Positions 1 through 24,240 of a stretch of DNA of 25,823 bases are shown in pieces. Each line of letters starts with the position of its first letter. The first letter of the stretch is position 1. Position numbers and translations under genes: made by a program. The notes beneath the pieces were generated by a model. It saw only the letters and a program-made list of their open reading frames with translations. It did no database searches and was not told the DNA's origin. The DNA comes from Candidatus Tayloriibacteriota bacterium. GTDB lineage: Bacteria; Patescibacteriota; Minisyncoccia; Phycocordibacterales; PALSA-1337. Where the stretch lies: positions 1 to 25,823 of the forward strand of contig JAHFMB010000006.1 in NCBI GenBank assembly GCA_023269245.1, in the 5' to 3' direction.

Positions 1-29
1 ACAGTGATGGCGATGGTGAGTTTTTTCAT
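1..29 (-). CDS. Start of a leftward gene, truncated by the window edge
   Basis: Nine codons of a leftward gene are visible, beginning with ATG at 27-29 and reading MKKLTIAIT. A basic start followed by hydrophobic residues would suit a signal peptide or membrane anchor, but nothing more can be said. The call rests on the start codon and on a TATTAT box six nucleotides upstream, the arrangement shared by many genes in this window. Confidence 0.45.
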
Positions 30-35
30 GAGTGT

Positions 36-41
36 ATAATA
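36..41 (-). promoter_or_regulatory. -10 box (TATTAT) of the truncated leftward gene
   Basis: TATTAT on the minus strand lies 6 nt before the ATG at 29. Transcription would then start at or next to the A of the ATG, giving a leaderless mRNA. No convincing -35 is seen. Confidence 0.4.
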
Positions 42-85
42 CTCTTTTTATTGGTGAAGGGAAATGGCGTTGGGGAAATAAAATC

Positions 86-120
86 GCCCGCCGGAGTTCC
101 TTGCAGACACTCAAGCGGGC
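86..120 (-). terminator. Probable intrinsic terminator of the EamA-like gene
   Basis: On the minus strand GCCCGC (115-120) pairs with GCGGGC (86-91), followed by GATTTTATTT. The loop of about 23 nt is long, so strength is uncertain. It lies 15 nt beyond the stop codon of the membrane-protein gene. Confidence 0.5.
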
Positions 121-134
121 AGCGAACAGGCGGT

Positions 135-557
135 TCATTTGCTGTTGATCAGGTAAATGGCAATGAGACCCAAAGCAATGCCGGCAAACTGTTTTGCTGA
201 TGGCATGGTGGCATTGAGCAGGCCATCCACTAGTGGTGCTAATGTCGTCAACAGAATGCTGATAAGGACGATGAATACGCCTGTATTAATCTGTGGGTCG
301 GTCGTTTTCAGACTGTACACATAGACCGCGGCTCCATTGAATATGCCGACGGCGACGAGAGCGAGAATCGCCTTGGTTGTCACCATGGGTCCATTGATGA
401 GTTGTCGCGATGATAGTGCCAACATGCAGACCAGGCCGCAGAAGTTGATGATGGTTCCCATCCAAACTCCAGGTGCACCGACGCGTTTACCGACGATGGG
501 CCAACAGACGTAGCCAAGGGCGATGAAAACCGCCCAGGCAAGTGTTTTTGCGTTCAT
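135..557 (-). CDS. Small EamA/SMR-like multi-spanning membrane protein
   Basis: This 140-aa, very hydrophobic protein has four or five predicted membrane helices, for example around residues 4-20, 29-46, 60-80, 90-110 and 120-137. Polar loops include VGKRVGAPG and KTTDPQINTG. Its size and pattern resemble the half-size EamA/drug-metabolite-transporter and SMR families, which often dimerise to export small molecules; the substrate is unknown. I chose the ATG at 555-557 (MNAKTLAW) because helix 1 begins there. An in-frame start 15 codons earlier would add a polar stretch. The gene appears monocistronic: tRNA-Ser lies upstream on the same strand beyond a hairpin-rich gap, and a hairpin follows the stop. 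No -10 box is seen directly before the start, unlike most neighbours. Family assignment is moderate and function is inferred. Confidence 0.65.
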   Translation of the reverse strand: MNAKTLAWAVFIALGYVCWPIVGKRVGAPGVWMGTIINFCGLVCMLALSSRQLINGPMVTTKAILALVAVGIFNGAAVYVYSLKTTDPQINTGVFIVLISILLTTLAPLVDGLLNATMPSAKQFAGIALGLIAIYLINSK

Positions 558-649
558 AGTTCGAGGTCTTTCTGTAAAAGGGTTCGTTGCAGACAATACC
601 ACTGATTCGCGGCTAAGTCTAGGTCTCCATACACTGTCACGTACTCGTT

Positions 650-666
650 GCGGAGAGGGGGAGATT
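650..666 (-). repeat. Partial copy of the tRNA-Ser 3' end
   Basis: GCGGAGAGGGGGAGATT at 650-666 is identical to 814-830, which is the acceptor and T-arm end of tRNA-Ser(CGA). The sequence upstream of the copy does not fold into a tRNA. It could be a decayed tRNA duplicate or a recombination scar. Confidence 0.6.
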
Positions 667-696
667 TGAGTCTTACAGACTCTGTACAGGCTTCAC

Positions 697-725
697 ATTT
701 TCTCGGAGCAGAGCTCCTCGAAAAT
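697..725. repeat. Inverted repeat (hairpin)
   Basis: Arms of 13 nt (697-709 and 713-725) are complementary except for two adjacent positions, around a 3-nt loop (AGA). With A/T-rich ends on both sides it could work as a weak bidirectional terminator. Confidence 0.45.
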
Positions 726-811
726 AGGTTCAGCCTTTTCGAATCTCCCACGTGACGCGCGCAGGCGCGTCACTCCTCTCACGCAAAGCATATTCGCTTT
801 GCTCAGTGCTT

Positions 812-901
812 TGGCGGAGAGGGGGAGATTCGAACTCCCGAGGAGCTTGCGCCCCTGCCGCTTTTCGAAAGCGGTGCATTCGACCACTCTGCCACCTCTC
901 C
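812..901 (-). tRNA. tRNA-Ser(CGA)
   Basis: This 90-nt cloverleaf has acceptor GGAGAGG pairing with CCTCTCC, an anticodon stem CCGCT/AGCGG around loop TTCGAAA (anticodon CGA), a long variable arm (AGGGGCGCAAGCTCCT) typical of class II tRNA-Ser, and a T-arm with TTCGAAT. The CCA tail is encoded at 812-814 after discriminator G. It decodes UCG. It is transcribed leftward from a promoter overlapping that of tRNA-Glu. Confidence 0.95.
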
Positions 902-910
902 AAGGTAATT

Positions 911-956
911 GCGGTGATGAACCGCTATACCTTAGCATTTTTTGCCATTTTTTCAA
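911..956 (-). promoter_or_regulatory. Probable promoter and leader hairpin of tRNA-Ser
   Basis: On the minus strand TTGAAA (951-956) and TAAGGT (929-934, preceded by TGC) are 16 bp apart. A perfect hairpin GCGGT/ACCGC (911-925) lies in the leader before the tRNA. The -10 is poor, so this is tentative. Confidence 0.35.
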
Positions 957-969
957 AAAATGTTAATAT
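942..969 (+). promoter_or_regulatory. Probable promoter of tRNA-Glu (and the nuclease gene)
   Basis: TTGCCA (942-947), a 16-bp spacer and TAATAT (964-969) point rightward to tRNA-Glu. It overlaps the opposing tRNA-Ser promoter, so the two may compete for polymerase. Confidence 0.45.
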
Positions 970-982
970 GCCTCTCATACGG

Positions 983-1025
983 CCTGCCCGCCGTAGCTCG
1001 AGCACATGCGAGAGCGAAGGAGGGC
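983..1025. repeat. Imperfect palindromic repeat of a type recalled from CPR genomes
   Basis: GCCCGCCGTAGCTC (986-999) pairs with GAGCGAAGGAGGGC (1012-1025) at 11 of 14 positions around a 12-nt loop. From memory, elements of the form GCCCGCCGTAG...CGAAGG(A/C)GGGC are dispersed in many Parcubacteria contigs; I cannot verify copy number here. The right arm runs into the first bases of tRNA-Glu. Confidence 0.55.
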
Positions 1026-1094
1026 CCTATCGTCTAACGGTTAGGACATCGCCTTTTCAAGGCGGTAATCGGGGTTCGATTCCCCGTAGGGCTA
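1023..1094 (+). tRNA. tRNA-Glu(UUC)
   Basis: This cloverleaf has acceptor GGCCCTA/TAGGGCT, anticodon loop TTTTCAA (anticodon TTC) on stem TCGCC/GGCGG, and T-arm GGGGTTCGATTCCCC. CCA is not encoded: CTG follows discriminator A, so the tail must be added by CCA-adding enzyme, unlike the neighbouring tRNA-Ser. The nuclease gene follows after 36 nt with no promoter of its own visible. Confidence 0.95.
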
Positions 1095-1130
1095 CTGGGA
1101 AGACGCCTGCAACGTCATCATTTACGAAAA

Positions 1131-1655
1131 ATGGAATACAAAAAAATCACGACGTTTCTCGTCGTCGTTACTGTGCTTATTGTGTGCACGTGTGTGTTTA
1201 CTGGGTATGTCATTGTCCGCGCATTCTCCGGTCCGTCCATAGATGAAAGTGAGTCTTATCAAGTCACTGAGGTAAAAGACGGTGATACATTCAACGTAAA
1301 AATAGGTCGTCATATAGAAACTATTCGCATGTTGGGTATAGACACACCGGAGACCGTCGATCCACGAAAATCAGTGCAGTGTTACGGAAAAGAAGCATCT
1401 GATGAGACAAAAAGTTTATTACAGGGAAAAACAGTCCGATTGAAGCTCAATCCCGACAGGGAAGAAAAAGATAAATATGGGCGTTATTTGGCGTACGTGT
1501 TCCTTGATGATGTGTTCGTGAACAGGTTCTTACTCCAAGAAGGGTATGCGCGTGAATATACATTCGGGACACCCTATATGTATCAGAAGGAGTTTAGGGG
1601 AATTGAGAAGCAGGCCAAAGACTTGCAGAAAGGATTGTGGGCCGCATGCCGCTAG
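1131..1655 (+). CDS. Thermonuclease-like (SNase domain) protein, membrane-anchored or secreted
   Basis: This 174-aa protein has one N-terminal hydrophobic segment (about residues 7-31) and then a staphylococcal-nuclease domain (about 43-172). The conserved core is visible: VKDGDTF (48-54), IRMLGIDTPE (65-74) with the equivalents of nuclease Arg35, Asp40 and Glu43 at R66, D71 and E74, and GRYLAYV (117-123) with R118 matching Arg87. The domain cleaves DNA and RNA with Ca2+, outside the membrane here, and could help a nucleotide-scavenging cell degrade external nucleic acids (inference). The ATG 1131 start puts the anchor at the N-terminus. The gene follows tRNA-Glu and probably shares its transcript. 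Its stop (1653-1655) abuts the stop of the convergent reductase gene with no spacer. Confidence 0.88.
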   Translation: MEYKKITTFLVVVTVLIVCTCVFTGYVIVRAFSGPSIDESESYQVTEVKDGDTFNVKIGRHIETIRMLGIDTPETVDPRKSVQCYGKEASDETKSLLQGKTVRLKLNPDREEKDKYGRYLAYVFLDDVFVNRFLLQEGYAREYTFGTPYMYQKEFRGIEKQAKDLQKGLWAACR

Positions 1656-2576
1656 CTATTTTGCGTGCACATACAAATAAATATCCTCAACTGCCTTCAC
1701 TGCATCTCCCGCGGCAATGTTGTTCTGCTGATAGAGTCCGTCAGTACAATCACCGGCAGCCCAAATGCCCTCGACTGAAGATCGCTGGTTTTTTGGATCA
1801 GTGACAACACGATTGACCTTGTCGAGCTTGATAAGGTCTTTGGCAAAATTCGTATTTGGCACAGATCCAACTTCTGCAAAGATGCCAGTGACTGGAACCT
1901 CGGTATCTTTTCCTGACTTGGTTTCTGTATAGACCAGAGACGTTACGAATTGGCCACCCTTTATTTCCTTTGGCGAAGCAAATTCGACGGCCTTCATCTT
2001 TGGGTTTTTGAGTACTTTTTCAACAGTGCTTGGGTCGGCCTTGAAACCACTGCGAGATAGAAGGGTAACACTCTTACAATATGCGAGAAGTTGTGCGGCA
2101 CTCTCAAATCCCGCATTGCCTCCGCCGACAACAACGACGTCTTGGTCGGCATACATAGGGCCATCACATGAAGCACAATAGGTGAGACCTTTGTGCTCAT
2201 ACTTTTCAGCACCTGGAACTGTCAATTTCCTACGACTGCTGCCTGAAACAATCAAAACAGTCTTTGCCTCATAGGTTCCTTTGGTTGTAGTAATGGAAAA
2301 GTGCCCGCCAGCCTTTTCAAGCTTTGTGGCAAGTTCACCTTCTTTGAAATCAATCACACCGTCCGCGTAGGCTTTGGCATGTTTTTTAAGATTCTCTGAG
2401 AGTTCGAGTCCCGATATAGCGACCGTGCCAACCCAGTTTTCAACTTTCTCCGACACATTACTCTGGCCGAGCCAATCCTTGGTGATGAATACTGAACGTA
2501 ATCGTTTGCGGGCCGCATAGACAGCAGCAGCCGCTCCGGCCGGTCCGCCACCAATGATTGCGAGGTCGTAGGTCAT
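1656..2576 (-). CDS. trxB: Thioredoxin reductase-like FAD/NAD(P) flavoprotein
   Basis: This 306-aa protein has the layout of bacterial thioredoxin reductase: an FAD-binding GGGPAG (9-14), a redox motif CASC (Cys134, Cys137), a second Rossmann motif GGGNAG (151-156) for NAD(P)H, and a C-terminal FAD-contact motif WAAGDC (272-277). Such enzymes use NADPH to reduce thioredoxin through FAD and the Cys pair. The motif is CASC rather than the usual CATC, and I cannot tell whether the partner is thioredoxin or a glutaredoxin-like protein; no trx gene is in the window, although a DsbA-like protein is. The ATG at 2574-2576 lies 9 nt after a TGCTACAAT box, giving an almost leaderless message. The convergent nuclease gene touches its 3' end. 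Confidence 0.9.
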   Translation of the reverse strand: MTYDLAIIGGGPAGAAAAVYAARKRLRSVFITKDWLGQSNVSEKVENWVGTVAISGLELSENLKKHAKAYADGVIDFKEGELATKLEKAGGHFSITTTKGTYEAKTVLIVSGSSRRKLTVPGAEKYEHKGLTYCASCDGPMYADQDVVVVGGGNAGFESAAQLLAYCKSVTLLSRSGFKADPSTVEKVLKNPKMKAVEFASPKEIKGGQFVTSLVYTETKSGKDTEVPVTGIFAEVGSVPNTNFAKDLIKLDKVNRVVTDPKNQRSSVEGIWAAGDCTDGLYQQNNIAAGDAVKAVEDIYLYVHAK

Positions 2577-2585
2577 AGTTGGATT

Positions 2586-2594
2586 ATTGTAGCA
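2586..2594 (-). promoter_or_regulatory. Extended -10 box of trxB
   Basis: TGCTACAAT on the minus strand ends 9 nt before the ATG. The -35 region (TACCGC, 17 bp upstream) is weak, as expected for an extended -10 promoter. The start point would fall within about 3 nt of the ATG. Confidence 0.6.
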
Positions 2595-2624
2595 TGAAGG
2601 AAAAGAGAGCGGTATATCTTGCGC

Positions 2625-2647: not shown

Positions 2648-2651
2648 TTTT

Positions 2652-6838: not shown

Positions 6839-7252
6839 CTATACGCCAAACTGTTTTCTGAGCTTGGCTTCTATACCTTCCATTATATCCCCATGGTCAT
6901 ATCCTTTCAAATGGGTACAACCGTGTATGAAAAGAAATGCAATGAAATTATCGTAGGAACGATCGAATTTCTTTGCCTCACTGCGCGCTTCTTTTTCCGA
7001 GATATACATTTCACCTTCGGTTTCCGAAAGAGGGAAGCTCAAGATATCCGTAGCGCATTCTTTGTTTCGGTAAATGGTGTTGAGCTTCTTGATCTTGGCT
7101 GAATCAGTGAAAATAAGATTGAGCGTATATGTTGTGCCGAGTGCAGCGTCTTTGATGGCAAGAAAATCGACAGCCGGAATATGACTGTCGGTTTCGTTGA
7201 TGAGAGAGAATGTTGCAGAACCCTTCTTCACCGTTTTATTTCTTGCCACCAC
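6839..7252 (-). CDS. ybeY: Endoribonuclease YbeY (rRNA maturation factor)
   Basis: This 137-aa protein has the zinc-site signature HGCTHLKGYDH (His110, His114, His120) and the upstream CATDILSFPLSE strand typical of YbeY/UPF0054. YbeY is a single-strand endoribonuclease needed for 16S rRNA 3'-end maturation and ribosome quality control. The likely start is a GTG at 7250-7252 (or the next codon, also GTG), overlapping the rpsU 3' end by 17 bp, so translation is probably coupled to that of bS21. No ATG is available before the conserved core. Pairing a ribosomal-protein gene with a ribosome-maturation nuclease and ftsA suggests one growth-linked operon. Confidence 0.93.
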   Translation of the reverse strand: MVARNKTVKKGSATFSLINETDSHIPAVDFLAIKDAALGTTYTLNLIFTDSAKIKKLNTIYRNKECATDILSFPLSETEGEMYISEKEARSEAKKFDRSYDNFIAFLFIHGCTHLKGYDHGDIMEGIEAKLRKQFGV

Positions 7253-7484
7253 GCTCTGGCTTGACTGGAGCTTTGCCGAGCTTTACCAGCTCTGCGAGAT
7301 CGCTGCGGCGCTTCATGAGCTTGAGTGCGCGCTGCTTGACCTTGTATGAAGATTGGACACGGGTAGCGAAACGGATGCTGCGCTTGCGCTGGATGATGCC
7401 AGATCCTTGGACTTTTCTAGTAAAACGTCGAATAACGCCTAGGGCGTTTTCGTTCGGATTGCGGGTTACTTCTGCATTTATCAT
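7236..7484 (-). CDS. rpsU: 30S ribosomal protein bS21
   Basis: This 82-aa highly basic protein has the bS21 pattern: NENALGVIRRFTRKVQGSGII near the N-terminus, then RSIRFATRVQSSYKVKQRALKLMKRR. bS21 sits on the 30S platform near the anti-Shine-Dalgarno region and influences initiation. The C-terminal extension (LVKLGKAPVKPERGGKK) is longer than in E. coli bS21 (71 aa). The ATG is at 7482-7484, 9 nt after an extended -10 box. It is the first gene of the probable rpsU-ybeY-ftsA operon and overlaps ybeY. Confidence 0.95.
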   Translation of the reverse strand: MINAEVTRNPNENALGVIRRFTRKVQGSGIIQRKRSIRFATRVQSSYKVKQRALKLMKRRSDLAELVKLGKAPVKPERGGKK

Positions 7485-7493
7485 AGGTAAAAG

Positions 7494-7522
7494 ATTGTAA
7501 CATAGGTATGAATCCGAGGCAA
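7494..7522 (-). promoter_or_regulatory. Promoter of the rpsU-ybeY-ftsA operon
   Basis: On the minus strand TTGCCT (7517-7522), a 17-bp spacer and TGT-TACAAT (7494-7502) are present. The box ends 9 nt before the rpsU ATG. It overlaps the opposing promoter of the methyltransferase gene. Confidence 0.7.
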
Positions 7523-7526: not shown

Positions 7527-7535
7527 TGCTATTTT
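7527..7535 (+). promoter_or_regulatory. Extended -10 box of the methyltransferase gene
   Basis: TGCTATTTT ends 6 nt before the ATG at 7542. It lies within 5 bp of the opposing rpsU -35, so the two promoters are likely mutually exclusive. Confidence 0.55.
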
Positions 7536-7541: not shown

Positions 7542-8315
7542 ATGAAACCTACTTCAACCTCTTGGGGCGGCGTGGCCGAATGGTACGACGATCTCTTGGA
7601 ACAAAGCTCAGATTCATACCAAAAGAATGTGGTCATGCCGAACATTCTTCGTCTTATTGAACCAAAGAAGGGGATGACTATTCTCGATATTGCCTGTGGC
7701 CAAGGCTATTTTTCTCGTGCCTATGCTGCAGCAGGAGCAAAGGTGATTGGGTGTGACATTTCTATTGAACTCATAGAAAAAGCACAGGCCCAAAAAGTTG
7801 CCGGTGGTGACGTCGAATATTATGTTGCGCCTGCTGACAGTCTTTCATTTATTGAGAATGGTTCAGTTGATGTGGCGACCATAACCTTGGCGTTGCAGAA
7901 CATAGAGAACCTTGCCGGCGCTATTGCTGAAGCATCGCGCGCGCTCAAATCCGGCGGACGACTTGTTTTTGTTATCAATCATCCGGCATTCCGCATTCCT
8001 GGTGGTTCAGAATGGTCGTGGGATGATAAAAAGTCGGTGCAGTTTCGCCGTCTCGATTCGTACATGTCAGATGCTCGCTCAAAGATTGATATGACACCAG
8101 GCGAGAAAGATCCAAAAAAGAAAAAGTTTACCGTTTCATTCCATCGTCCGCTTCAATCATATTTCAAAGCGCTCAATAAGGCAGGATTTTCGGTAGTTCG
8201 TCTTGAAGAATGGATTTCTCATAAAAAAAGTCAGCCAGGGCCGCGTGCAGAGGAAGAGGATCGCACTCGGAAGGAAATCCCACTGTTTTTGTGTGTAGAG
8301 GCGAGGAAGATTTAA
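7542..8315 (+). CDS. Class I SAM-dependent methyltransferase
   Basis: This 257-aa protein has a Rossmann methyltransferase fold of the Methyltransf_11 type. Motif I is ILDIACGQGYFSRAYAAAGAKVIGCDIS (from residue 47), followed by VEYYVAPADSLSF, the motif IV region SVDVATITLALQNIENL, and ALKSGGRLVFVINHPAF. The substrate is unknown. The C-terminal half (about 170-257), with KKFTVSFHRPLQSYF and a charged HKKSQPGPRAEEEDRTRKE stretch, probably shapes the acceptor site. Three ATGs are possible (7524, 7536, 7542). I prefer 7542 because the -10 box TGCTATTTT ends 6 nt before it and overlaps or precedes the others. It is monocistronic and diverges from the rpsU operon. Confidence 0.85.
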   Translation: MKPTSTSWGGVAEWYDDLLEQSSDSYQKNVVMPNILRLIEPKKGMTILDIACGQGYFSRAYAAAGAKVIGCDISIELIEKAQAQKVAGGDVEYYVAPADSLSFIENGSVDVATITLALQNIENLAGAIAEASRALKSGGRLVFVINHPAFRIPGGSEWSWDDKKSVQFRRLDSYMSDARSKIDMTPGEKDPKKKKFTVSFHRPLQSYFKALNKAGFSVVRLEEWISHKKSQPGPRAEEEDRTRKEIPLFLCVEARKI

Positions 8316-10949: not shown

Positions 10950-10958
10950 ATTATAGCA
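10950..10958 (-). promoter_or_regulatory. Extended -10 box of the MFS permease gene
   Basis: TGCTATAAT on the minus strand is a perfect match to the extended consensus and ends 9 nt before the chosen ATG. No good -35 is seen on this strand. Confidence 0.65.
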
Positions 10959-10972: not shown

Positions 10973-11001
10973 TTGCGCTCATGTCCTGAACGTGTTACAT
11001 T
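10973..11001 (+). promoter_or_regulatory. rpmE promoter
   Basis: TTGCGC (10973-10978), a 17-bp spacer and TACATT (10996-11001, preceded by TGT) end 7 nt before the rpmE ATG, giving a leaderless message. The same -35 word, TTGCGC, recurs at the rpoD promoter. Confidence 0.65.
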
Positions 11002-11008: not shown

Positions 11009-11269
11009 ATGAAAAAAGACATTCATCCAGCCAACTATCGCCCGGTTATTTTCGCCGACAACTCAAGCGGCGCCAAGTTTTTGATTGCCTCAACTATCGC
11101 TACCAAGGAGACCGCAAAGTGGACTGACGGCAAGGAATATCCGATCCACCATGTTGAAATTTCGAGCGCTTCTCATCCTTTCTACACAAATCAGGAAAAG
11201 ACCATCGACACCGCAGGACGCGTCGAAAAGTTCAAGAACCGCCAGGCAAAAGCAGCAGTTAAGAAATAA
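11009..11269 (+). CDS. rpmE: 50S ribosomal protein bL31, zinc-free type
   Basis: This 86-aa protein begins [15 protein letters not shown], the hallmark of bL31, and contains HPFYT and [15 protein letters not shown] near the C-terminus. bL31 bridges the large and small subunits near the central protuberance. The Cys residues that bind zinc in C+ forms are absent: DNSSGAKF and [11 protein letters not shown] occupy the usual CxC and CxxC positions. It is therefore a C- form that should be independent of zinc. The start at 11009 is set by homology and by the -10 box 7 nt upstream. prfA follows, as is common in bacteria, across a hairpin-forming spacer. Confidence 0.93.
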
Positions 11270-13733: not shown

Positions 13734-13762
13734 TTGCGGACAATGATATTTTCTGTTATAGT
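13734..13762 (+). promoter_or_regulatory. Promoter of the 95-aa membrane protein gene
   Basis: TTGCGG (13734-13739), a 17-bp spacer and TATAGT (13757-13762, preceded by TGT) end 6 nt before the ATG at 13769. The message should be leaderless. Confidence 0.7.
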
Positions 13763-13768: not shown

Positions 13769-14056
13769 ATGACCGATGAAGAGCGCTCCTTGCTCGAGCG
13801 AACATACAAGCTCGCTGAGGAGAACAACGAGATATTGCGTGCCATGCGCCGAGCCAATAGGTTCTCGACGATTATGCGCGTACTCTATTGGGTTGCGATC
13901 ATTGGTTTGAGTTTTGGTGCCTACTATCTCATTCAGCCATATCTTAACGCGACAATGGATGCCTATAGCAAGCTTTCAGGCAACATCCAGGGGGTTGAGA
14001 ATAATATAAATAGCGCACAAAGCACGTTGGATACCCTGAAAGGATATCTGAAATAA
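13769..14056 (+). CDS. Small single-span membrane protein with flanking helices, function unknown
   Basis: This 95-aa protein begins MTDEERSLLERTYKLAEENNEILRAMRRANR, a charged helix likely to form a coiled coil. One membrane span follows (about residues 35-56, IMRVLYWVAIIGLSFGAYYLI), then a polar C-terminal helix rich in N, S and Q. From memory, short proteins of this design are frequent in Parcubacteria genomes and have no known role. The ATG at 13769 is supported by the promoter box 6 nt upstream. A longer in-frame ORF from 13679 would run through the tRNA-Arg and the promoter and is rejected. tRNA-Phe follows after 5 nt, so the two are probably co-transcribed. Confidence 0.8.
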   Translation: MTDEERSLLERTYKLAEENNEILRAMRRANRFSTIMRVLYWVAIIGLSFGAYYLIQPYLNATMDAYSKLSGNIQGVENNINSAQSTLDTLKGYLK

Positions 14057-14739: not shown

Positions 14740-14745
14740 TATACT
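14740..14745 (+). promoter_or_regulatory. Possible dnaG -10 box
   Basis: TATACT lies 11 nt before the dnaG ATG at 14757, which would leave a leader of only about 4 nt. The -35 is not clear (TTGCCT at 14713 is 21 bp away, too far). Confidence 0.4.
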
Positions 14746-14756: not shown

Positions 14757-16631
14757 ATGAATCGGACTATTGTTGAACAGATCAAGGAACGCCTGCCGGT
14801 CAATGAGGTTATTGGCCAGTATGTGAAATTGGAAAAATCAGGCAATGCCTATAAGACCAAGTGTCCATTTCACAATGAGAAAACCCCGTCTTTTTTTGTA
14901 TCACCAGATCGTGGCGGGTACTACTGTTTTGGATGCAATGCCAAAGGGGACATTTTCACATTCGTTGAGCAGTTTGAAGGGCTCGATTTTCGTGGTGCGC
15001 TCAAAGTGCTGGCAGAGCGTGCGGGGGTGCAGCTTACGATGGACAACAAAGCCGATGGCGAACGAGACCGTTTTTATCAGATTATGGAAGCGGCAACGTT
15101 GTATTTTGGAGATCAGTATACACGCACCAAAGATGCTCAGACATATATCAAAAACCGCGGCGTGGCCGACAAGACTCGGGAGGAGTTTCGCATTGGGTGG
15201 GCACCGGAGGGCTGGAGCAACTTGACGACATTTCTCAAGAAAAAAGGGTGGACAGAGAACATGATTGAAAAGGCAGGACTAGCGAAAAAAGGCGACAAAG
15301 GTGATGTATACGACCGTTTTCGTGGACGTGTGATGTTTCCAATATCCGATTCGAGTGGACGGGTGATTGCATTCTCTGGACGCATTCTCAAAGATGATGG
15401 GAAATCAGCCAAGTATCTCAACAGCCCTGATACGCCATTATTTGATAAGTCACGGGTGCTCTATGGTCTCGACAAGGCCAAGAGTGATATTCGTCGCATG
15501 GGATATTCCATACTTGTTGAAGGTCAGATGGACCTGGTCATGTCTCACCAGGTTGGTATAAAAAACACAGTTGCCTCTTCAGGTACCGCTCTGACAGACG
15601 AAGCGATAAGTGAAACCGGTGCTATCAGCAATCTTGGTCTTGTGCGCCGTCTGTCGCCGAACATTATCATTGCCTTTGATTCTGACTCAGCCGGTAGGAC
15701 AGCGGCGATGCGTGCGGCCGGTATTGCACTGTCGATGGGTATGGATGTGAAAATCGCCGATCTCGTTGGCGGCCTGCCTGCCGGACAGGCAGGCAAGGAT
15801 CCGGCAGATCTAGTGCAACACAATCCGGAAGATTGGAAAAATATCTTACGCGGGGCAAAACCTATCATTGAATTTGAACTCGGTAATGTGATGCGTGATG
15901 TTCCAGATCCTCGAAAAATTGGGCGCGCGCTTCGTGACCGAGTTTTTCCATTTCTTGCGCGCATCGAGAGTCGTATGGATCAGGCGCATTTTGTGAAAAT
16001 GATTTCTGACAAGACAAACATCTCAGAAGCTGCGGTGTGGGACGACTTGAAAAAAGTTAAGGTTGAAACGGCTCCAGTAGTGGGGGCGACGCAGGCGGGC
16101 ACTGCCTCAACCGGACGCTTCGGAGGCCGCGAAGGCGAATTAGCAGATTCGAGAATGCTCGGCCGAGGACCAGCCGCAACCTCAGTTGAGGTCGACGGCG
16201 TGTCCGGGAGAGGTAGTGCCGCCGGAGGAGCCCCCATCCAATTGGACCTTATTTCCCGTCGCCTCTTTGGCCTCCTATTCCATATTGAAAAATCATCGCC
16301 AGATCAAGGAAAAATCTATCGGACAAAAATTCAAAAAATTGCTGGAGATTTGTACTCCGCTCTTATTGCTCAAGTCGAGTCGATGATAAACGATCTCGCA
16401 TTTGAGGCAGAAGCTGTCTTTGGAAGCGACACAAAAGAGTGGGACAGGCACATGAAGGAACTCATTGTTAATTTTGAAGAGGACATGATTGGCACCGAAC
16501 TCATCAGCACTATGAATGAGCTGAAACAGGCTGAAAAAGCAGGGAATGTGACTCGCGTTACCGAATTAGCCAAGAAGTGTCAGGCGCTCTCAATCCGTAA
16601 GGCTGAAGTTGGCAAGAAAAAGAGGCTTTAA
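14757..16631 (+). CDS. dnaG: DNA primase
   Basis: This 624-aa primase makes RNA primers at the replication fork. The zinc finger is visible as CPFH (C36, H39) and CFGC (C57, C60), followed by the catalytic N-terminal half with FPISDSSGRVIAFSGRIL, the TOPRIM motif VEGQMD (about 253-258) and the metal-binding AFDSDSAG (about 304-311). A Gly-rich, low-complexity linker (about 445-495) precedes the C-terminal region that would contact the replicative helicase. Two things are odd. The segment GGLPAGQAGKDPADL carries an in-frame palindromic insertion. The frame is also open for 95 codons upstream of the start. MNRTIVEQIKERL is the conserved beginning of DnaG, so the ATG at 14757 is preferred. rpoD follows, the classic macromolecular-synthesis order. 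Confidence 0.96.
   Translation: MNRTIVEQIKERLPVNEVIGQYVKLEKSGNAYKTKCPFHNEKTPSFFVSPDRGGYYCFGCNAKGDIFTFVEQFEGLDFRGALKVLAERAGVQLTMDNKADGERDRFYQIMEAATLYFGDQYTRTKDAQTYIKNRGVADKTREEFRIGWAPEGWSNLTTFLKKKGWTENMIEKAGLAKKGDKGDVYDRFRGRVMFPISDSSGRVIAFSGRILKDDGKSAKYLNSPDTPLFDKSRVLYGLDKAKSDIRRMGYSILVEGQMDLVMSHQVGIKNTVASSGTALTDEAISETGAISNLGLVRRLSPNIIIAFDSDSAGRTAAMRAAGIALSMGMDVKIADLVGGLPAGQAGKDPADLVQHNPEDWKNILRGAKPIIEFELGNVMRDVPDPRKIGRALRDRVFPFLARIESRMDQAHFVKMISDKTNISEAAVWDDLKKVKVETAPVVGATQAGTASTGRFGGREGELADSRMLGRGPAATSVEVDGVSGRGSAAGGAPIQLDLISRRLFGLLFHIEKSSPDQGKIYRTKIQKIAGDLYSALIAQVESMINDLAFEAEAVFGSDTKEWDRHMKELIVNFEEDMIGTELISTMNELKQAEKAGNVTRVTELAKKCQALSIRKAEVGKKKRL
15772..15794. repeat. Palindromic element inserted in-frame in dnaG
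   Basis: GCCTGCCTG (15772-15780) and CAGGCAGGC (15786-15794) form a perfect 9-bp stem with centre CCGGA. It encodes LPAGQAG within a region where primases normally read straight into G/E-KDPADL. I recall similar CCTGCCTGCCGG...CAGGCAGG palindromes scattered through Parcubacteria coding sequences. Confidence 0.65.
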
Positions 16632-16703: not shown

Positions 16704-17948
16704 ATGAGAAAAACCAAAAAAGGGGCCTCAAAAGCTCGTTCAAAAGTCCGACGTCCAGTAAAGCGTTCGTCGTTCAAAGCAAAGAGGACTTCATCAAAGA
16801 AGGGTTCTTCACGCACCGTAAAGCAGACCGGCAAGTCCGGCAAGCCGCTGTCAAAAGTGGACAAAGCCAAGGATTTTGAGGTACGCGCCAATAAGCTCAT
16901 CAACAAGGGCCGCGACCGTGGTTTCATTACGTATGATGAGATCATGAAGGAGTTCCCGCAGATTGAGAACGACATCATGTTCCTCGATGAATTGTACAGC
17001 AAATTCAGTGCAGCAAATGTGGACGTTCTTGAAGGCGGGGGCTTGCTCGAGATCGAGGATCTCGCTCCAAAGAAGCCTGCCACTCACTACTCGCGTACCA
17101 GCTCATCTGACTCCGCGTATGACTCTATTCAGATGTATCTCAAAGAGATCGGTCAGTACCCGCTCATTACCGCGTCTGACGAAAAAGATTTGGCAAAGCG
17201 CATCCAAGCAGGCGATATTGAAGCAAAAAATCTTCTTGCGAAAGCAAACCTCCGTCTCGTGGTTTCTATTGCAAAAAAATATGTTGGCCGCAGCCCAGAT
17301 CTAACCCTGCTCGATCTTATTCAAGAAGGAAATCTTGGTTTGTTCCGTGCAGTAGATAAGTTTGATTGGACTAAAGGATACAAATTCTCCACGTATGCTA
17401 CCTGGTGGATTCGTCAGGCTATCACCCGCGCACTTGCCGACCAGTCACGCACGATTCGTGTGCCAGTTCACATGGTTGAAACCATTGCAAAGTACAAGCA
17501 GGTAGTTCGCCGTCTTTCACATGATCTTGGACGCGAACCATTGCCAGATGAAATTGCCACAGAGATGGGTATGGACGTCGACAAGATCTACCAGATTGAA
17601 AAGATTGAGCAAGATGTCGTGTCTCTCGAAAATCCAGTTGGCGATGATAGTGATGATGGTAAGTCGACGCTCCAGGACTTTATTCCAGATGACAAGATAC
17701 TCCCACCAGATCAAGAGTCTTCGCGCCGTATTCTGCGTGATCAGGTCAATATGATTCTCAATGATCTCTCTGAAAAGGAGCGCAAGATTCTCGAGATGCG
17801 CCATGGTCTCATGGATGGTATCACCCACACCCTCGAAGAAGTAGGAAAGGAGTTCGGTGTTACCCGCGAGCGCATTCGTCAGATTGAGGCAAAAGCGCAT
17901 GAAAAGATTCGCCAGCATGAGAAGATCAATCGCCTCAAGAACTACTAA
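16704..17948 (+). CDS. rpoD: Primary sigma-70 factor (RpoD/SigA)
   Basis: This 414-aa protein starts with a Lys/Arg-rich tail (1-50). A region 1.1-like domain follows (about 55-120), then region 1.2 ([17 protein letters not shown]), region 2 with [59 protein letters not shown] (core binding and -10 recognition), region 3 ([17 protein letters not shown]), and region 4 ending in [19 protein letters not shown] (-35 recognition). The large non-conserved insert of E. coli RpoD is absent, as in SigA proteins. This factor should recognise the many extended -10 promoters seen in the window. The helicase gene begins 15 nt after its stop, but its -10 box lies between them. Confidence 0.97.
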
Positions 17949-17957
17949 TGCTATAAT
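17949..17957 (+). promoter_or_regulatory. Extended -10 box of the helicase-nuclease gene
   Basis: TGCTATAAT, a perfect extended -10, starts 1 nt after the rpoD stop and ends 6 nt before the ATG at 17964. It gives a leaderless message squeezed into a 15-bp gap. Confidence 0.7.
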
Positions 17958-17963: not shown

Positions 17964-20906
17964 ATGACAGAGGAAGCATTCAACCTCCGATACAAACGCC
18001 TGAACAAGCCCCAAAAGGAGGCAGTAGATGCCATCGAAGGCCCTGTCATGGTTATAGCTGGCCCCGGAACGGGCAAAACCACGATTCTGACACTTCGTAT
18101 TGCCAACATTCTCAAGCGTACTGACACTCCTGCAAATGGCATTTTAGCTATTACCTATACTGATGCGGGTGTTAAAGCCATGCGTCAGAAATTACAGGGT
18201 ATCATTGGAGATCGTGCACACGATGTCCGCATACATACATTTCACGGATTTGCTTCATCGGTCATCGCTGAATACCCTGATCATTTCTTACATTTAAGTG
18301 ATTTGAAACAGATGACGGACATCGAGCAGGAGTCCTTGATTCGCGCAATTATTTCTGACCCAAAGTTTTCCGATATTAGACCAGCAGGAAAACCTGATGC
18401 TTACGTTTCAGGCATTATTCGCAGCATTGATGATGCAAAAAGGGAGGCGCTTACTCCTGGAATGGTCCGACAGTTTGCCCAAGATGAAATCGAGCGTATC
18501 AAGAATGACGAAGAATCCATTTCGACCCGCGGTGCTACCAAGGGGCAACTTAAAGCGGACGCCAAAGAAATGATCGAAAAATATGGCCGCACTATTTTAT
18601 TTGGCGATGTCTATGAACTGTATGAGATGAAAAAATTGGAGGCGAAAAAGATGGACTTTAATGATTTAATCATTGAGTTGTTACTTGCATTGCGAAAAGA
18701 CGAATTACTTTTACGATTAATTCAGGAACGCTACTTGTATCTACATATCGACGAACATCAGGACACCAACGACGCGCAGAACTTTATAGTCGGTCTGATC
18801 GCAGAATTTTTTGATACGCCGAATATCTTTATTGTTGGTGATGAAAAACAGGCCATCTATCGTTTTCAGGGCGCATCCGTGGAGAACTTTCTATTATTGC
18901 AAAAGAAGTGGCCGTCTATGAAGCTTATTTCTTTGGATACCAACTACCGTTCTCATCAAAGTATCCTTGATGCAAGTTTTGGCATGATTGAGAAAAATTA
19001 TGAAGAGGGCGAGCATGCGGATTTACGAATTAAGTTGAAATCGGGAAGTGATGACGAGGCGCGCCCGATTGACGTTGTTATTGGGGAAAATGTATCGGCC
19101 ATCGAATTACACATGGTCAATGAACTGCGCACTCTTACAGAAAAAGAACCCAAAACTACAGCCGCTATCATTGTTAGACGCAATCGAGATTTGGACAGGG
19201 TGATTCGTCTTCTTGAATCACATCACATTCCTGTATCGTCAGAAAGAAGCGTCGACATTTTCAGTCACCCGGTTGGTCGGCTCTTTTTTGATTTGATTGA
19301 ATATTTGGCAGATTCATCAAAAACAGATGCTTTAGCCAGAACGGTAATCGCTGGCATGTGGAATATACCATTTGAAAAAGGTACTGAAGTGGTCAAGTTA
19401 CTACGAAGTGGTCAGCCGGTAGAGATTGGTAATCTGCTCAAAATACAGCGATCTATGCTCAATGATGGAGCCATCGGGTTTCTTATTCATGCCGCAGAGG
19501 AGTCTAGTTTTACCACTTTGGTTGCGCGAAATCCCTCGTATATTCATGTGTGGCGGGGCATTATTTCATTGGCTGAATCACTGACACGCGAAGGCGATCT
19601 GCGCGACCCTGCTGAGCTCATCCGCAACATGCTGGCATATCGTACTTCAGCTGAGACACGGACAGTGAAAGTCTCAGTTGGTGCCCCTGACGTCCCAATT
19701 CAAGCCATGACGGCGCATGGCAGCAAGGGGCTTGAATTCGATTACGTTTTTATCCCATACGCCACGGAGGAATCATGGATTGGCAAACCCCGAGGCGCCT
19801 CATTCGTGTTGCCGAAGAAGAGAACCACTGAAAGCGATATTCGCGACGTGCGCCGTCTGTTTTATGTCGCACTAACTCGCGCACGAAAACAGGTAACTGT
19901 ATTGACTGCACAAGAAGAATCGGATGGAAAAATGTTGGAGCCAGTTCGATTTATTGACGAGCTTGATGAGAAGCATGTGGCAAGTGTTGAATTGCCGCGG
20001 GTAGGAGTAGATGAGGTTCATGTGCACGGAGAAAGGAGTACGAAGCAGGAAGCAGGGAGTTCGGAAACTGACGGGATTTCCCAGAAACTTATCGACATTA
20101 CCAAGCACACGCTTCTAACTAACGGCTTGTCGGTTACGGCACTCAATCATTTTCTCGAATGCCCGAATACATTTTTGTATCAAAGTATTCTGAAATTGCC
20201 GCAAGCTCCGTCAGTTGCCGCTGAAAAGGGCACGGCCATGCACTCGGCCTTTGATGCGATTTGGAATGCAAAAGTAAAAACTGCGTTGGAAATTGAAGTA
20301 CTTTTAATAGAAAGGATTAACGAATACTTTAAGACATCATTCTTGCCAAGTACCGAAAAGACCTCTGCTCTTAAAGAATTGCTTGCTGATGCGCCGGCTG
20401 TGGCACGGGCGCTTGAATCACATTTTACTCAAGGAGAAAAAGCCCAGGTATTCACCGAGACTTGGGTGGAGACGGAATTCGTTGCAGCATACAAAGGGCA
20501 GACCGTCCGAATACCGCTACATGGAAAATTAGATGCAATCATTGATGTGGGTAATTCTGTCAACGTTTTTGACTACAAAACAAAGCAGGCTATGTCAGTC
20601 AATGCCATCAAGGGCGAGACCAAGAGTGATTCCAGCGGCAAGTATTTTCGTCAACTCATTTTTTATAAAATGCTTCTGCAGCATGATCCACGATGGCGTT
20701 CTCGATCCATTATTCCAGCGCTCGTATTCGTTTCTCCTGATGAAAAGGGAAGGTGTCCGACGGTGACATTGCCGATTGAGCAGGCAGATATTGAACGAGT
20801 CAAAAAGGAAATCCAGACTCTCGTTGATGCGGTGTGGAATGGTGATATTGCCCGAACAAAATGCGATGATATGAAATGCAAATGGTGCGGAGTGAGAGGG
20901 GTGTAG
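17964..20906 (+). CDS. UvrD/Rep-type helicase fused to a PD-(D/E)XK (RecB/AddB-like) nuclease with a probable Fe-S cluster
   Basis: This 980-aa protein has superfamily 1A helicase motifs: Walker A AGPGTGKTT (32-40), motif II DEHQDT (263-268; the usual form is DEYQDT), GDEKQAIYRFQGA, LDTNYRSHQSI, TAHGSKGLEFDYVFIP, and RRLFYVALTRARK. From about residue 715 a RecB-family nuclease domain follows, with SVTALNHFLECPNTFLYQ, EKGTAMHSAFD, GKLDAIID...VFDYKTK and a C-terminal CDDMKCKWC. Cys733 with Cys967, Cys972 and Cys975 matches the split four-cysteine iron-sulfur arrangement of AddB and Cas4-like nucleases. A single-chain helicase-nuclease of this kind probably processes double-strand DNA ends, perhaps in place of RecBCD or AddAB (inference). 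A leaderless start is set by the -10 box 6 nt upstream. It converges on the DsbA gene with 5 bp between stops. Confidence 0.93.
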   Translation: MTEEAFNLRYKRLNKPQKEAVDAIEGPVMVIAGPGTGKTTILTLRIANILKRTDTPANGILAITYTDAGVKAMRQKLQGIIGDRAHDVRIHTFHGFASSVIAEYPDHFLHLSDLKQMTDIEQESLIRAIISDPKFSDIRPAGKPDAYVSGIIRSIDDAKREALTPGMVRQFAQDEIERIKNDEESISTRGATKGQLKADAKEMIEKYGRTILFGDVYELYEMKKLEAKKMDFNDLIIELLLALRKDELLLRLIQERYLYLHIDEHQDTNDAQNFIVGLIAEFFDTPNIFIVGDEKQAIYRFQGASVENFLLLQKKWPSMKLISLDTNYRSHQSILDASFGMIEKNYEEGEHADLRIKLKSGSDDEARPIDVVIGENVSAIELHMVNELRTLTEKEPKTTAAIIVRRNRDLDRVIRLLESHHIPVSSERSVDIFSHPVGRLFFDLIEYLADSSKTDALARTVIAGMWNIPFEKGTEVVKLLRSGQPVEIGNLLKIQRSMLNDGAIGFLIHAAEESSFTTLVARNPSYIHVWRGIISLAESLTREGDLRDPAELIRNMLAYRTSAETRTVKVSVGAPDVPIQAMTAHGSKGLEFDYVFIPYATEESWIGKPRGASFVLPKKRTTESDIRDVRRLFYVALTRARKQVTVLTAQEESDGKMLEPVRFIDELDEKHVASVELPRVGVDEVHVHGERSTKQEAGSSETDGISQKLIDITKHTLLTNGLSVTALNHFLECPNTFLYQSILKLPQAPSVAAEKGTAMHSAFDAIWNAKVKTALEIEVLLIERINEYFKTSFLPSTEKTSALKELLADAPAVARALESHFTQGEKAQVFTETWVETEFVAAYKGQTVRIPLHGKLDAIIDVGNSVNVFDYKTKQAMSVNAIKGETKSDSSGKYFRQLIFYKMLLQHDPRWRSRSIIPALVFVSPDEKGRCPTVTLPIEQADIERVKKEIQTLVDAVWNGDIARTKCDDMKCKWCGVRGV

Positions 20907-21733: not shown

Positions 21734-21770
21734 AGTGTGAAGTTAGTAGATAATGTGCTCCAATTGTACC

Positions 21771-22346
21771 CTAAAACGGTAGCGTATACGTCATGGCATG
21801 GGGAATACTGTTTTCCCATTCCGCCGTGTTGAGTTTGACCTCTTTGACCGCGCCAAGCTCCTTGTATTTCAGATGTTTGTTCTCTAGGGCATAGTCGTAT
21901 AAATCGCGCGTCAGCCGCACATCCTCGATACAGTACTTGATCACCTTGTCGATCTCGCCATTTCGCCACCACTCGATAGCGTCGAGGCCGTGACCCGATT
22001 TATTTCGTTGTAATGTTGCTTCTCCGACAGTGTCCAATTTGAGGCGACGTCCCAACACAAGTTGTACTTCGCGCATCAAGTCAATGCTTTTAATTTTAGT
22101 TAGATCACCTGGATAGTATTTGTTGAGCAGGGGAATATCAAAGTGATCACCGTTCCAGGTCACGAGAGCATCGGCTTGCTCGAGAGTCTGCCAGAGTTTA
22201 CCGAAGTCCTTTTCTAGAAAGCTGGAGAATTCGTTTGTGAATGAATCGTGGATGCCTACGACTGAAATATCGAGAGCAGCCGGATCATTGGATCCCACAT
22301 CCTGAAAGATGTTTTTTGTTTCTATATCGAATGTGATGACACGCAT
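21771..22346 (-). CDS. DEDDy-type 3'-5' exonuclease (RNase H-like fold)
   Basis: This 191-aa protein shows the three DEDD exonuclease motifs: FDIET (Asp7, Glu9), WNGDHFDIPLL (Asp70) and YCIEDVRLTRDLY (Tyr138, Asp142; the Tyr marks the DEDDy subgroup, as in polymerase proofreading domains and YprB-like proteins). There is no polymerase domain, so it is a stand-alone nuclease acting on DNA or RNA 3' ends. The ATG at 22344-22346 (MRVITFDIET) is preferred. The upstream ATG (MSPMRV) overlaps the -10 box TACAAT, which ends 7 nt before the chosen start. The promoter is wedged against the terminator of the preceding 137-aa gene. DsbA follows downstream. Confidence 0.85.
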   Translation of the reverse strand: MRVITFDIETKNIFQDVGSNDPAALDISVVGIHDSFTNEFSSFLEKDFGKLWQTLEQADALVTWNGDHFDIPLLNKYYPGDLTKIKSIDLMREVQLVLGRRLKLDTVGEATLQRNKSGHGLDAIEWWRNGEIDKVIKYCIEDVRLTRDLYDYALENKHLKYKELGAVKEVKLNTAEWENSIPHAMTYTLPF

Positions 22347-22353
22347 AGGGGAC

Positions 22354-22359
22354 ATTGTA
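22354..22359 (-). promoter_or_regulatory. -10 box of the exonuclease gene
   Basis: TACAAT on the minus strand ends 7 nt before the ATG at 22346. A TG directly precedes it, without the usual one-base gap. It is next to the U-tract of the preceding terminator. Confidence 0.55.
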
Positions 22360-22363
22360 CAGG

Positions 22364-22400
22364 AAAAATAAAAAACCCGCACTCACTGGAGCGAGTGGGG
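22364..22400 (-). terminator. Intrinsic terminator of the 137-aa gene
   Basis: On the minus strand CCCCACTC (22400-22393) pairs with GAGTGCGGG (22384-22376) with one bulged base, followed by TTTTTTATTTTT. It begins about 20 nt after the stop codon. Confidence 0.8.
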
Positions 22401-22420
22401 CTGGCGAACCGCCTGCGACA

Positions 22421-22834
22421 TCAAGCCGCGACGGGTAAGAGGTGCAGATGATGCTCAACAATTGTCTGCAATGACCCAAGTTTCCAAAAGTCCGGGGCCT
22501 GGACAAAGAGTACTTGATCGTGGCTGATCAGGCGTTCCTGCTCAGGGCTGGCATTGAGGAGAATGAAAGTGGTTTCAGGGCGCAGTTGCCGAAGGTCGTG
22601 GATGAGCAATGGTCCTGCACTTATGCCGTTGTCTGATACGGCGGGGTCTATACCGCTATGCAGAGGGTGAAACGGCTCGGTCACCACGAGTGCAATGGGA
22701 CTCCCGAGAGTCTTTGCGAGTCGCAAGGCTTCGTCCCCATACACATGGTACACATCATGGTCAGGAATGTGGCGCAATTTGCCAAAAACGTAGGCCATGT
22801 TTGCACAGCCAACAACAAGGATCGTGGGTCTCAT
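22421..22834 (-). CDS. Hypothetical 137-aa alpha/beta protein (receiver-like?)
   Basis: I do not recognise this protein. It opens with a hydrophobic strand (MRPTILVVGCANMAYVF) and alternates likely strands and helices (IALVVTEPFHP, PLLIHDLRQLRPETTFILLNASPEQ, VLFVQAPDFWKLGSLQTIVEHHLHLL). The layout recalls a response-regulator receiver or other flavodoxin-like fold: the helix LRQLRPETTFILLNA resembles the receiver helix-4/strand-4 segment. However, the usual acidic pocket and phospho-Asp are not obvious, so a degenerate receiver is only one option. It is monocistronic, with its own TTGACA promoter, a leader of about 24 nt and a terminator. It is enriched in His and Pro near the C-terminus. Confidence 0.7.
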   Translation of the reverse strand: MRPTILVVGCANMAYVFGKLRHIPDHDVYHVYGDEALRLAKTLGSPIALVVTEPFHPLHSGIDPAVSDNGISAGPLLIHDLRQLRPETTFILLNASPEQERLISHDQVLFVQAPDFWKLGSLQTIVEHHLHLLPVAA

Positions 22835-22864
22835 AAATACATGATTTCAAACTGTTCGACACCA

Positions 22865-22893
22865 ATGATGCCGTACCTGAGTATATATGTCAA
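22865..22893 (-). promoter_or_regulatory. Promoter of the 137-aa gene
   Basis: On the minus strand a consensus TTGACA (22888-22893), a 17-bp spacer and CATCAT (22865-22870) are seen. It begins only 5 bp after the hisS stop codon. Confidence 0.55.
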
Positions 22894-22897
22894 ACCC

Positions 22898-24205
22898 CTA
22901 TGTGCGGATAGTTCTAGCCAATTCTTCGTCACTACCAGAGAGCTCTTCACCCGTAGCCAGTATTTTCATACGAAGTTTGCCGTTTTTGACTTCTTCGTCG
23001 CCGATGCAGATAACTCGGGGAACCCCTCTCTTGTCAGCATTTTTAATCTGATCGCCGACTTTCTTGTTGGATACATCAACAAGTACTCGGATATTTTTGG
23101 CCCTGAATGATTGGGCGATTTCAAGGGCGTAGGGAGTACTCTGATCGCCAACCACACAAAGCGCGACATCGGCAGGCGCGGAATTTTTTTGAATCGCGTT
23201 GTACGTTTCCATGAGATCTCGAGCGACGACGTCTCCCGCGCCAAAACCAAAAGCAGGAACTTTTTCATTGCCGAACAGGGAAAGCAGGTCATCATATCGT
23301 CCGCCGCCGAATACGGAACGGCGATTGAGTGGATTGAGGTCATAGACTTCGAACACGATGCCGGTGTAATAGTCGAATCCACGCATCAACGTCTGGTCAA
23401 AACGAGCGTTAGTAATGCCGAGACGCTCCAAGCCGGCTAAACATTCGCGAATTTCCTTGAGTCCGACATGTTCTTCGGTTGTCTGCGGCAGGCTTGAAGC
23501 AAATTCCTCAAAGTTTTTTGAATTGAGTAATATTAAAAATTGTTTTGTTTTATCGCCGAGCACGTCCGTAGCGGCCGCCTCAAACCATTCAGGCTTTACT
23601 TTGTCCTTCTTATCAATAAGCTTCGAGATTTTCTGTGCAGCAGCTTCGTCCAAGCCGAACACGTCGCGAGTCACGTAATTCATGATCTTGCGATTGTTGA
23701 TGCGGATTTCAAAGTCGGTGTCTGTGAGACCGAAAGATCGGGTAATGTCATAGGCAATGTTTATCACCTCAATCTCTGCGGCAATTGATTCAACGCCAAA
23801 TATATCCACGTTGAGCTGCCAATGTTCGCGGACCCGGCCTCGCTGCGGCTGTTCATATCGAAAAAGGTTCGGGATTGAATACCAACGAAGAGGAAAGACG
23901 AGCTCACGTTTGCGTGCGGCAACCATGCGTGCAAGACTCGGGGTCATTTCAGGGCGAAGTGTCACTTCTCGATCTCCACGGTCGGTAAACGTATACGTCT
24001 GTTCGTTCACGATTTCATCACCTGACTTTGCCTTGTACAGTTCGGCTGGTTCGAGTACAGAAGCGCCGTATTCCTCATACCCGTACATTTCAACCGTTTT
24101 TCTCCAAATATCAAAAATCTGCTTCTCCACTGCCATCTCGGAAGGGAAGAAGTCTCGGACGCCTTTGTAGGCATCAGTTGATAGCTTTTTCATGTCTTTT
24201 GACAT
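22898..24205 (-). CDS. hisS: Histidyl-tRNA synthetase
   Basis: This 435-aa class II aminoacyl-tRNA synthetase has motif 1 around GVRDFFPSEMAVEKQIFDIWRKT, TLRPEMTPSLARM, motif 2 WYSIPNLFRYEQPQRGRVREHWQLNVDIFG, the HisRS-specific RGFDYYTGIVFEVY, and motif 3 FGGGRYDDLLSLFG...PAFGFGAGDV. A C-terminal anticodon-binding domain begins near ADVALCVVGDQ. It charges tRNA-His. The start MSKDMKKLSTDAYKGVRDF (ATG 24203-24205) is chosen because a perfect-spacing TGCTACAAT box ends 6 nt upstream. The frame is open further upstream, but that extension passes through the promoter and a long inverted repeat. No terminator is visible downstream. Confidence 0.95.
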   Translation of the reverse strand: MSKDMKKLSTDAYKGVRDFFPSEMAVEKQIFDIWRKTVEMYGYEEYGASVLEPAELYKAKSGDEIVNEQTYTFTDRGDREVTLRPEMTPSLARMVAARKRELVFPLRWYSIPNLFRYEQPQRGRVREHWQLNVDIFGVESIAAEIEVINIAYDITRSFGLTDTDFEIRINNRKIMNYVTRDVFGLDEAAAQKISKLIDKKDKVKPEWFEAAATDVLGDKTKQFLILLNSKNFEEFASSLPQTTEEHVGLKEIRECLAGLERLGITNARFDQTLMRGFDYYTGIVFEVYDLNPLNRRSVFGGGRYDDLLSLFGNEKVPAFGFGAGDVVARDLMETYNAIQKNSAPADVALCVVGDQSTPYALEIAQSFRAKNIRVLVDVSNKKVGDQIKNADKRGVPRVICIGDEEVKNGKLRMKILATGEELSGSDEELARTIRT

Positions 24206-24211
24206 GCGACT

Positions 24212-24240
24212 ATTGTAGCAAATTATTACTAAAGTGTAAG
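24212..24240 (-). promoter_or_regulatory. hisS promoter
   Basis: On the minus strand CTTACA (24235-24240), a 17-bp spacer and TACAAT (24212-24217, preceded by TGC) end 6 nt before the ATG. The -35 directly abuts the long inverted repeat at 24241, which could affect it if extruded or bound by protein. Confidence 0.65.

Follow-up and report, generated by a model that had tools for sequence, protein, structure and literature searches.

Many genes of an uncultured bacterium of the Patescibacteria, some of them essential, seem from their sequence to be transcribed from the first coding letter or from a position beside it. The DNA concerned is the window, i.e., the whole stretch of 25,823 nucleotides (nt) that was analysed, which is contig C43 (GenBank JAHFMB010000006.1) of the genome of a tiny Candidatus Tayloriibacteriota bacterium (813,792 bases in 108 contigs, 83% complete); the element in question is a -10 promoter box located a few nt upstream of the start codon. 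The favoured explanation, to which we assign a probability of roughly 85%, is that sigma-70-type promoters adjacent to open reading frames (ORFs) place RNA starts near the AUG of about one-sixth to one-quarter of the genes, in a cell that is unable to use Shine-Dalgarno (SD) pairing. An earlier note on this DNA had listed eleven such boxes in the window, and all eleven hexamers were found at the claimed distance, each before an ATG.

Genes were called on 730,618 of these bases, with starts set by a codon-usage model blind to upstream DNA, so that starts fitting a box were not favoured. Of the 586 genes called, the 556 with 60 nt of upstream sequence were counted. A box was defined as TAnnnT with at least four of six matches to TATAAT, and its gap as the number of nt between box and start codon; the null expectation was taken from dinucleotide shuffles (1000 for the window, 200 for the genome) and from five control offsets in the same genes. 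The observation of the earlier note is confirmed at both scales. Within the window, boxes at gaps 6–11 precede nine of 23 genes, compared with 2.3 ± 1.4 in the shuffles (maximum 7), and across the genome the motif peaks at a gap of 6 nt, beyond the shuffles. Boxes at gaps 6–9 precede 130 of the 556 genes (shuffles 37.5 ± 5.4, maximum 53; control offsets 33–40 each) and boxes at gaps 6–7 precede 99 (shuffles 19.1 ± 4.4, maximum 31). For the narrower motif TANAAT, the counts are 28 at gap 6, nine at gap 7 and 0–6 at every gap between 12 and 45. Gap 6–7 boxes are present in 32 of 120 divergent genes versus 8 of 85 genes located at most 15 nt behind a same-strand neighbour, and the 61 genes with strong boxes at these gaps include those for EF-Tu, arginyl-tRNA synthetase and DNA polymerase I, as read by eye rather than by family search.

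Chance, or the picking of convenient starts in A/T-rich DNA, could produce such a pattern, and the start of the MFS permease gene in the window illustrates the concern: the codon-only caller prefers position 10982 over the box-implied 10940, and this start is not settled. However, for nine of the ten complete listed genes the caller recovered the box-implied start from coding sequence alone, which is consistent with most of the start corrections made in the earlier note, and that of hisS is additionally backed by its orthologues. In raw DNA, independent of gene calls, TGNTANAAT precedes an ATG in 19 cases at gap 6 and in 11 cases at gap 7, compared with 0–8 at each of the other gaps from 0 to 29, while two rearranged A/T motifs gave no gap-6 peak in the same scan. 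The control TANAAT-N5-CAT did peak (63 matches), because a C precedes the ATG, and is not a failed control. When the same caller was applied to 150 kb of Escherichia coli K-12, boxes were found in one of 120 genes (4–9 at control offsets). Together with the codon-only starts, the shuffles and a gap-14 control across the phylum, these results refute chance and start-picking at genome scale and make them extremely unlikely as an explanation.

The sequence further upstream identifies the boxes as promoters. When the 130 boxes of the genome were aligned, a TG at the extended position was present in 51, compared with an average of 8.7 elsewhere, and the -35 trinucleotide TTG occurred 15 times at a spacer of 17, ten times at 16 and once at 18, compared with 2.5 times per other offset. 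The -35 element is thus weak, with TTG at spacers 16–18 in 26 of the 130 boxes versus 7.6 expected. Among 145 boxes from 80 named contigs of relatives, TG was found in 81 (versus 9.7) and TTG in 25 at spacer 17 and in 11 at spacer 16 (versus 3.6). The combination of the TG extension with TTG at a spacing of 16–17 bp indicates that the boxes are promoters. Start regions that function without SD sequences often lie within A/T-rich, unstructured DNA, and the motif could be read as an A/T-rich signal for translation that prevents structure from forming at the start; this is very unlikely, as it is disfavoured by the promoter register of TG and TTG and by the lack of a gap-6 peak for other A/T-rich hexamers.

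Bacterial transcription starts about 7 nt downstream of a -10 box, so that with a gap of 6 nt the RNA would begin with the A of the ATG. All 87 genes with a box at gap 6–7 start with ATG, compared with 356 of the 385 genes without a box, and 53 of these 87 genes carry a C at position -1, compared with 25 of 79 genes with boxes at gaps 8–12. ATG-only starts and a C at -1 are the features expected if the A of the ATG is the first transcribed base. The proposed promoter would accordingly be of the sigma-70 type, with an extended -10, a weak TTG -35 and a 16–17-bp spacing, placed close to the gene; genes with gaps of 6–7 nt would be transcribed from the A of the AUG and those with gaps of 8–11 nt from a few nt before it.

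The second part of the favoured explanation concerns SD pairing. The claim of the earlier note that SD sequences are almost absent holds, as SD tetramers were found upstream of 51 of the 556 genes versus 48 in a control stretch, which equals background; SD-like 5-mers show a small excess at gaps 5–9 (38 matches, compared with 0–6 per gap at gaps 10–36). In E. coli K-12, SD motifs precede 65 of 120 genes, compared with 4–9 in control stretches. The strongest support for the leaderless picture lies outside the window, in the 16S rRNA. The 16S gene of this genome is split over contigs C51 and C6, which are joined by an exact 112-nt overlap, and the end of C6 fits the 16S model through its last position. 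Helix 45 is kept (fold -17.4 kcal/mol, z -4.5), but the tail after TGGA reads ATATTTCAAGAG and contains no CCUCC/CCTCC, whereas intact relatives have TCACCTCCTT. SD pairing would be unavailable because the tail lacks CCUCC, and, barring an overlooked second copy of the 16S gene, the ordinary form of such pairing would thus be excluded here.

Loss of the anti-SD is common in the class to which this bacterium belongs. A 16S match was found in 32 of 35 class genomes searched, and 24 of 29 further loci had a readable tail, with CCTCC in eight, CTCC in two and neither in 14; including the present genome, the anti-SD is lost in 15 of 25 tails. SD tetramers are at background in class genomes even when the tail is intact, and SD use was not seen to track the anti-SD within the class: small samples gave one gene in 53 from three genomes with an intact tail and one in 51 from three that have lost it. 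Across the phylum, 101 of 192 genomes contain the pattern TGGATCACCTCCTT, where absence may equally mean a missing 16S gene or a different ending. A hairpin just after helix 45, over the anti-SD position, was noticed in several tails (L297–L324) with differing stems (CTCC...GGAG, TTCC...GGAA, CTCTT...AAGAG); it occurs in about 12 of 25 class tails with mostly weak z values and is missing from the tail of the present genome, and is not claimed as a general feature. The 16S matches in G034, G041, G025, G045 and G046 are 1.8–2.6 kb long, as if they contained insertions.

The position of the box is conserved in orthologues. The nearest named match of hisS is from Candidatus Taylorbacteria, and hisS relatives were collected from the 80 contigs, titled Candidatus Taylorbacteria, Zambryskibacteria, Nomurabacteria, Doudnabacteria, Dojkabacteria and others. 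Of these, 79 were taken (L131, matching from residue 44, was left out) and 78 were scored, L176 having no start. A box at gaps 3–13 precedes hisS in 68 of the 78, at gap 6 in 35 and at gap 7 in 14, while chance over the 11 gaps is estimated at about 17–18% from the genome control offsets; the ten without a box include three of four Doudnabacteria-titled loci and the Dojkabacteria locus. Within the genus, own genome included, a box is present upstream of trxB in 23 of 29 scored orthologues (gaps 3–13), of the S21-like gene in 27 of 30, and of the helicase gene in all 14 scored (23 of 30 loci given). Boxes at gaps 6–9 also precede 89 of 362 other genes on the 80 contigs, compared with 21–34 at control offsets, while SD motifs precede 25 of them versus 16–28.

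This conservation bears on a further alternative, in which the boxes are real promoters but most genes are mainly transcribed from farther upstream as leadered, SD-free mRNAs. Among 260 intergenic upstream regions, 34 strict TGNTAHAAT sites were found, of which 13 lie at gaps 6–11, two at 12–25, ten at 26–50 and nine beyond 50, and this distribution indicates that leadered promoters may exist as well. Such transcripts would, however, leave the retention of the near box in orthologues and the sharpness of the peak at gap 6 to be accounted for, and this alternative is considered unlikely.

The signature extends widely across the phylum without being universal. A comparison of TGNTANAAT-N6-ATG with its N14 version in the same 286 genomes gave 5068 matches at gap 6 versus 1392 at gap 14 (medians 15 versus 4); gap 6 exceeds gap 14 in 254 genomes, 135 of them singly at p < 0.01, and equals it in four, and the excess is seen in 115 of 131 families. 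The pattern was also matched in 20 of 20 close relatives and, counting the present genome, in all 142 class genomes, where the control was the reversed pattern only. Family f116 (14 genomes) is strongly positive with 400 versus 36 matches, and five of its seven members examined for the tail have the intact anti-SD pattern, which indicates that promoters adjacent to ORFs do not depend on loss of the anti-SD. Outside the class, G263 shows both signals, with -10 boxes in 20 and SD motifs in 23 of 66 genes (loci L191–L196). G206 and G368 have little of either, with boxes in nine of 50 and nine of 42 genes versus 1–8 and 5–12 at offsets, and G313, with boxes in seven of 14 genes, provides too few against its family's lack of excess. 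The gap-6 pattern reaches its highest counts in some genomes of f89, the family of G263 (120, 106 and 101 in G263, G309 and G390), and TGGATCACCTCCTT was found in none of the six f89 genomes examined. A separate feature of G278 (contig C2, 2813-5503) is the 18-mer TGCTACAATTTCACTATG, of which 2.7 kb hold four identical copies and a fifth that is nearly so, an arrangement that looks like the tandem duplication of a small gene family sharing one promoter.

Several observations weigh against the favoured explanation. A pyrimidine at -1 is found in 286 of the 385 genes without a box and in 71 of 85 operon-like genes; this reduces its value as proof that transcription begins with the A of the AUG, and the test is taken as supporting only. 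Genes at most 15 nt behind a same-strand neighbour also reach a net box fraction of 22% when scored by a matrix. Boxes at gaps 9–11, among them those of trxB, rpsU, the MFS permease and dnaG, imply short leaders of about 2–5 nt instead of strict leaderlessness. In six 20-kb samples of class genomes the peaks are weak, with boxes in 12 of 53 genes versus 5–10 at offsets in three anti-SD-intact genomes and in nine of 51 versus 3–5 in three that have lost the anti-SD. Twenty-eight of the 286 genomes have fewer matches at gap 6 than at gap 14, and an excess is missing from families f88 (six genomes, 46 versus 65), f122 (four, 26 versus 29), f140 (five, 36 versus 37) and f99 (three, 16 versus 16), as well as from some single-genome families.

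The interpretation in the earlier note, which also predicted 70S initiation for core genes, is partly supported. Its claim of widespread transcription starting at or near the AUG is well supported by the gap-6 peak, the -35/TG register, the orthologues, the ATG-only gap 6–7 starts and the E. coli control, but it applies to a minority of genes. Simple counting, (130 - 37.5)/556, gives a net fraction of about 17%, and a two-fold cross-validated matrix, at the most favourable threshold and therefore leaning high, gives 26% for all genes, 42% for divergent genes, 44% for genes 16–50 nt and 21% for those more than 50 nt behind a same-strand neighbour, and 15% at contig edges. A benchmark for a leaderless-type genome is more than about 20% of genes, which the counted fraction does not reach and the matrix estimate for all genes exceeds.

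According to the favoured explanation, about one-sixth to one-quarter of the genes, and more of the divergent ones, would produce mRNAs with no leader or almost none, and the ribosome may directly recognise the AUG at their 5' end. The remaining genes would use another SD-free route, e.g., coupling, unstructured starts or an S1-like protein. IF3 was found in 19 of 20 relatives, and a protein that aligns with about 330 positions of the 516-position model for ribosomal S1 in 18 of 20, with a partial match in one and a weak match in another; the cut-off of this model was passed by none of the 20 relatives and by just two of 14 control genomes. Most members of the Candidate Phyla Radiation are said to be without Era, which binds GAUCA and CCUCC, in the available part of PMC10582724. 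We give even odds to a broader proposal, in which this class of Patescibacteria largely left SD initiation, with SD motifs being lost first and the 16S tail (the anti-SD and the Era-bound GAUCA) thereafter, lineage by lineage, while translation proceeds via leaderless mRNAs and the other SD-free route. If true, bacteria would have in this class a parallel to archaea without the core, such as Saccharolobus, and the trait would belong to a large group and not to one genome.

The gaps of the eleven listed boxes are 6 nt in five cases, 7 in two, 9 in three and 11 in one, and SD-like tetramers (GGAG, GAGG or AGGA at -16 to -5) precede none of the eleven genes. Their description as extended applies to the eight that carry TG one base upstream. 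On the minus strand, these are TACAAT at 2586..2591 (gap 9; trxB, 1656-2576), TACAAT at 7494..7499 (gap 9; the S21-like gene labelled rpsU, 7236-7484), TATAAT at 10950..10955 (gap 9; MFS permease, if its start is 10940) and TACAAT at 24212..24217 (gap 6; hisS, 22898-24205). On the plus strand, they are TATTTT at 7530..7535 (gap 6; a methyltransferase gene, 7542-8315), TACATT at 10996..11001 (gap 7; rpmE, 11009-11269), TATAGT at 13757..13762 (gap 6; the gene for a 95-residue protein, 13769-14056, for which a Pfam search gave no family above cut-off) and TATAAT at 17952..17957 (gap 6; a helicase-nuclease gene, 17964-20906). The three without TG are TATTAT at 36..41 on the minus strand (gap 6; a truncated gene with an ATG ending at 29), TATACT at 14740..14745 on the plus strand (gap 11; dnaG, 14757-16631) and TACAAT at 22354..22359 on the minus strand (gap 7; an exonuclease-like gene, 21771-22346).

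The window also encodes an RpoD-type sigma factor (16704..17948, plus strand) with Pfam sigma-70 regions 1.1, 1.2, 2, 3 and 4 above cut-off, which is likely the reader of these promoters. The helicase-nuclease is a UvrD-type helicase with a fused C-terminal PD-(D/E)XK nuclease; near-full-length matches to it at 64–100% identity occur in 12 of 30 genomes of the genus, counting the present one. The product of the rpsU-labelled gene matches Ribosomal_S21 in its N-terminal half only (17.3 bits versus a Pfam cut-off of 27), and no NCBIfam model matched it; it may be a bS21 that has diverged and whose C-terminal part is altered, which is of interest beside the missing anti-SD.

Gene expression in Patescibacteria is, to our knowledge, almost unstudied. 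Among the open-access matches listed, no paper joined leaderless transcription with Patescibacteria, and no priority is claimed; in the available text of PMC6851277, "leaderless" appears merely in the title of a reference on protein secretion. Gene finders that expect SD motifs may misplace starts in such genomes. A lineage without the anti-SD would allow direct recognition of a 5'-terminal AUG to be tested in bacteria that lack the usual route, and intact and lost tails within one class form a natural series for the loss of SD initiation.

Bacteroidota show no SD signal and some members have lost CCUCC, but their mRNAs are mainly leadered, and where the anti-SD is retained it is hidden by bS21. 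The present genome resembles them in the missing SD signal and in the loss of CCUCC, and PMC10783764 touches on this phylum in its accessible part; an S21-like gene is present here as well, although it scores below the Pfam cut-off. The same source lists single entries of Absconditabacteria, Campbellbacteria, Peregrinibacteria and Wolfebacteria that are CCUCC-less and scarce in SD motifs, like the organism described here, but as far as the available text goes it does not report ORF-adjacent promoters or the extent of loss within one class. In Actinobacteria and other bacteria, leaderless genes have been deduced from a TA-like signal upstream of the start (PMC3160421), similar to the signal found here, whereas that account does not include loss of the anti-SD and Patescibacteria are not mentioned in the portion available. 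The available part of PMC12641178 reports that the conserved factor YchF promotes translation of leaderless mRNAs. A close likeness in promoter placement exists with Deinococcus-Thermus, where, in the accessible text of PMC12340547, TAnnnT a few bp before the ORF acts as a promoter -10 with a required spacing in about 30% of ORFs, i.e., an ORF-adjacent -10 at a short fixed gap as in the present genome. In comparison with that system, the arrangement described here is known from sequence alone and is enriched in the TG extension and the TTG -35, and while SD (ribosome-binding) motifs co-occur with the boxes in Deinococcus-Thermus according to that text, SD motifs are at background here and the anti-SD is gone.

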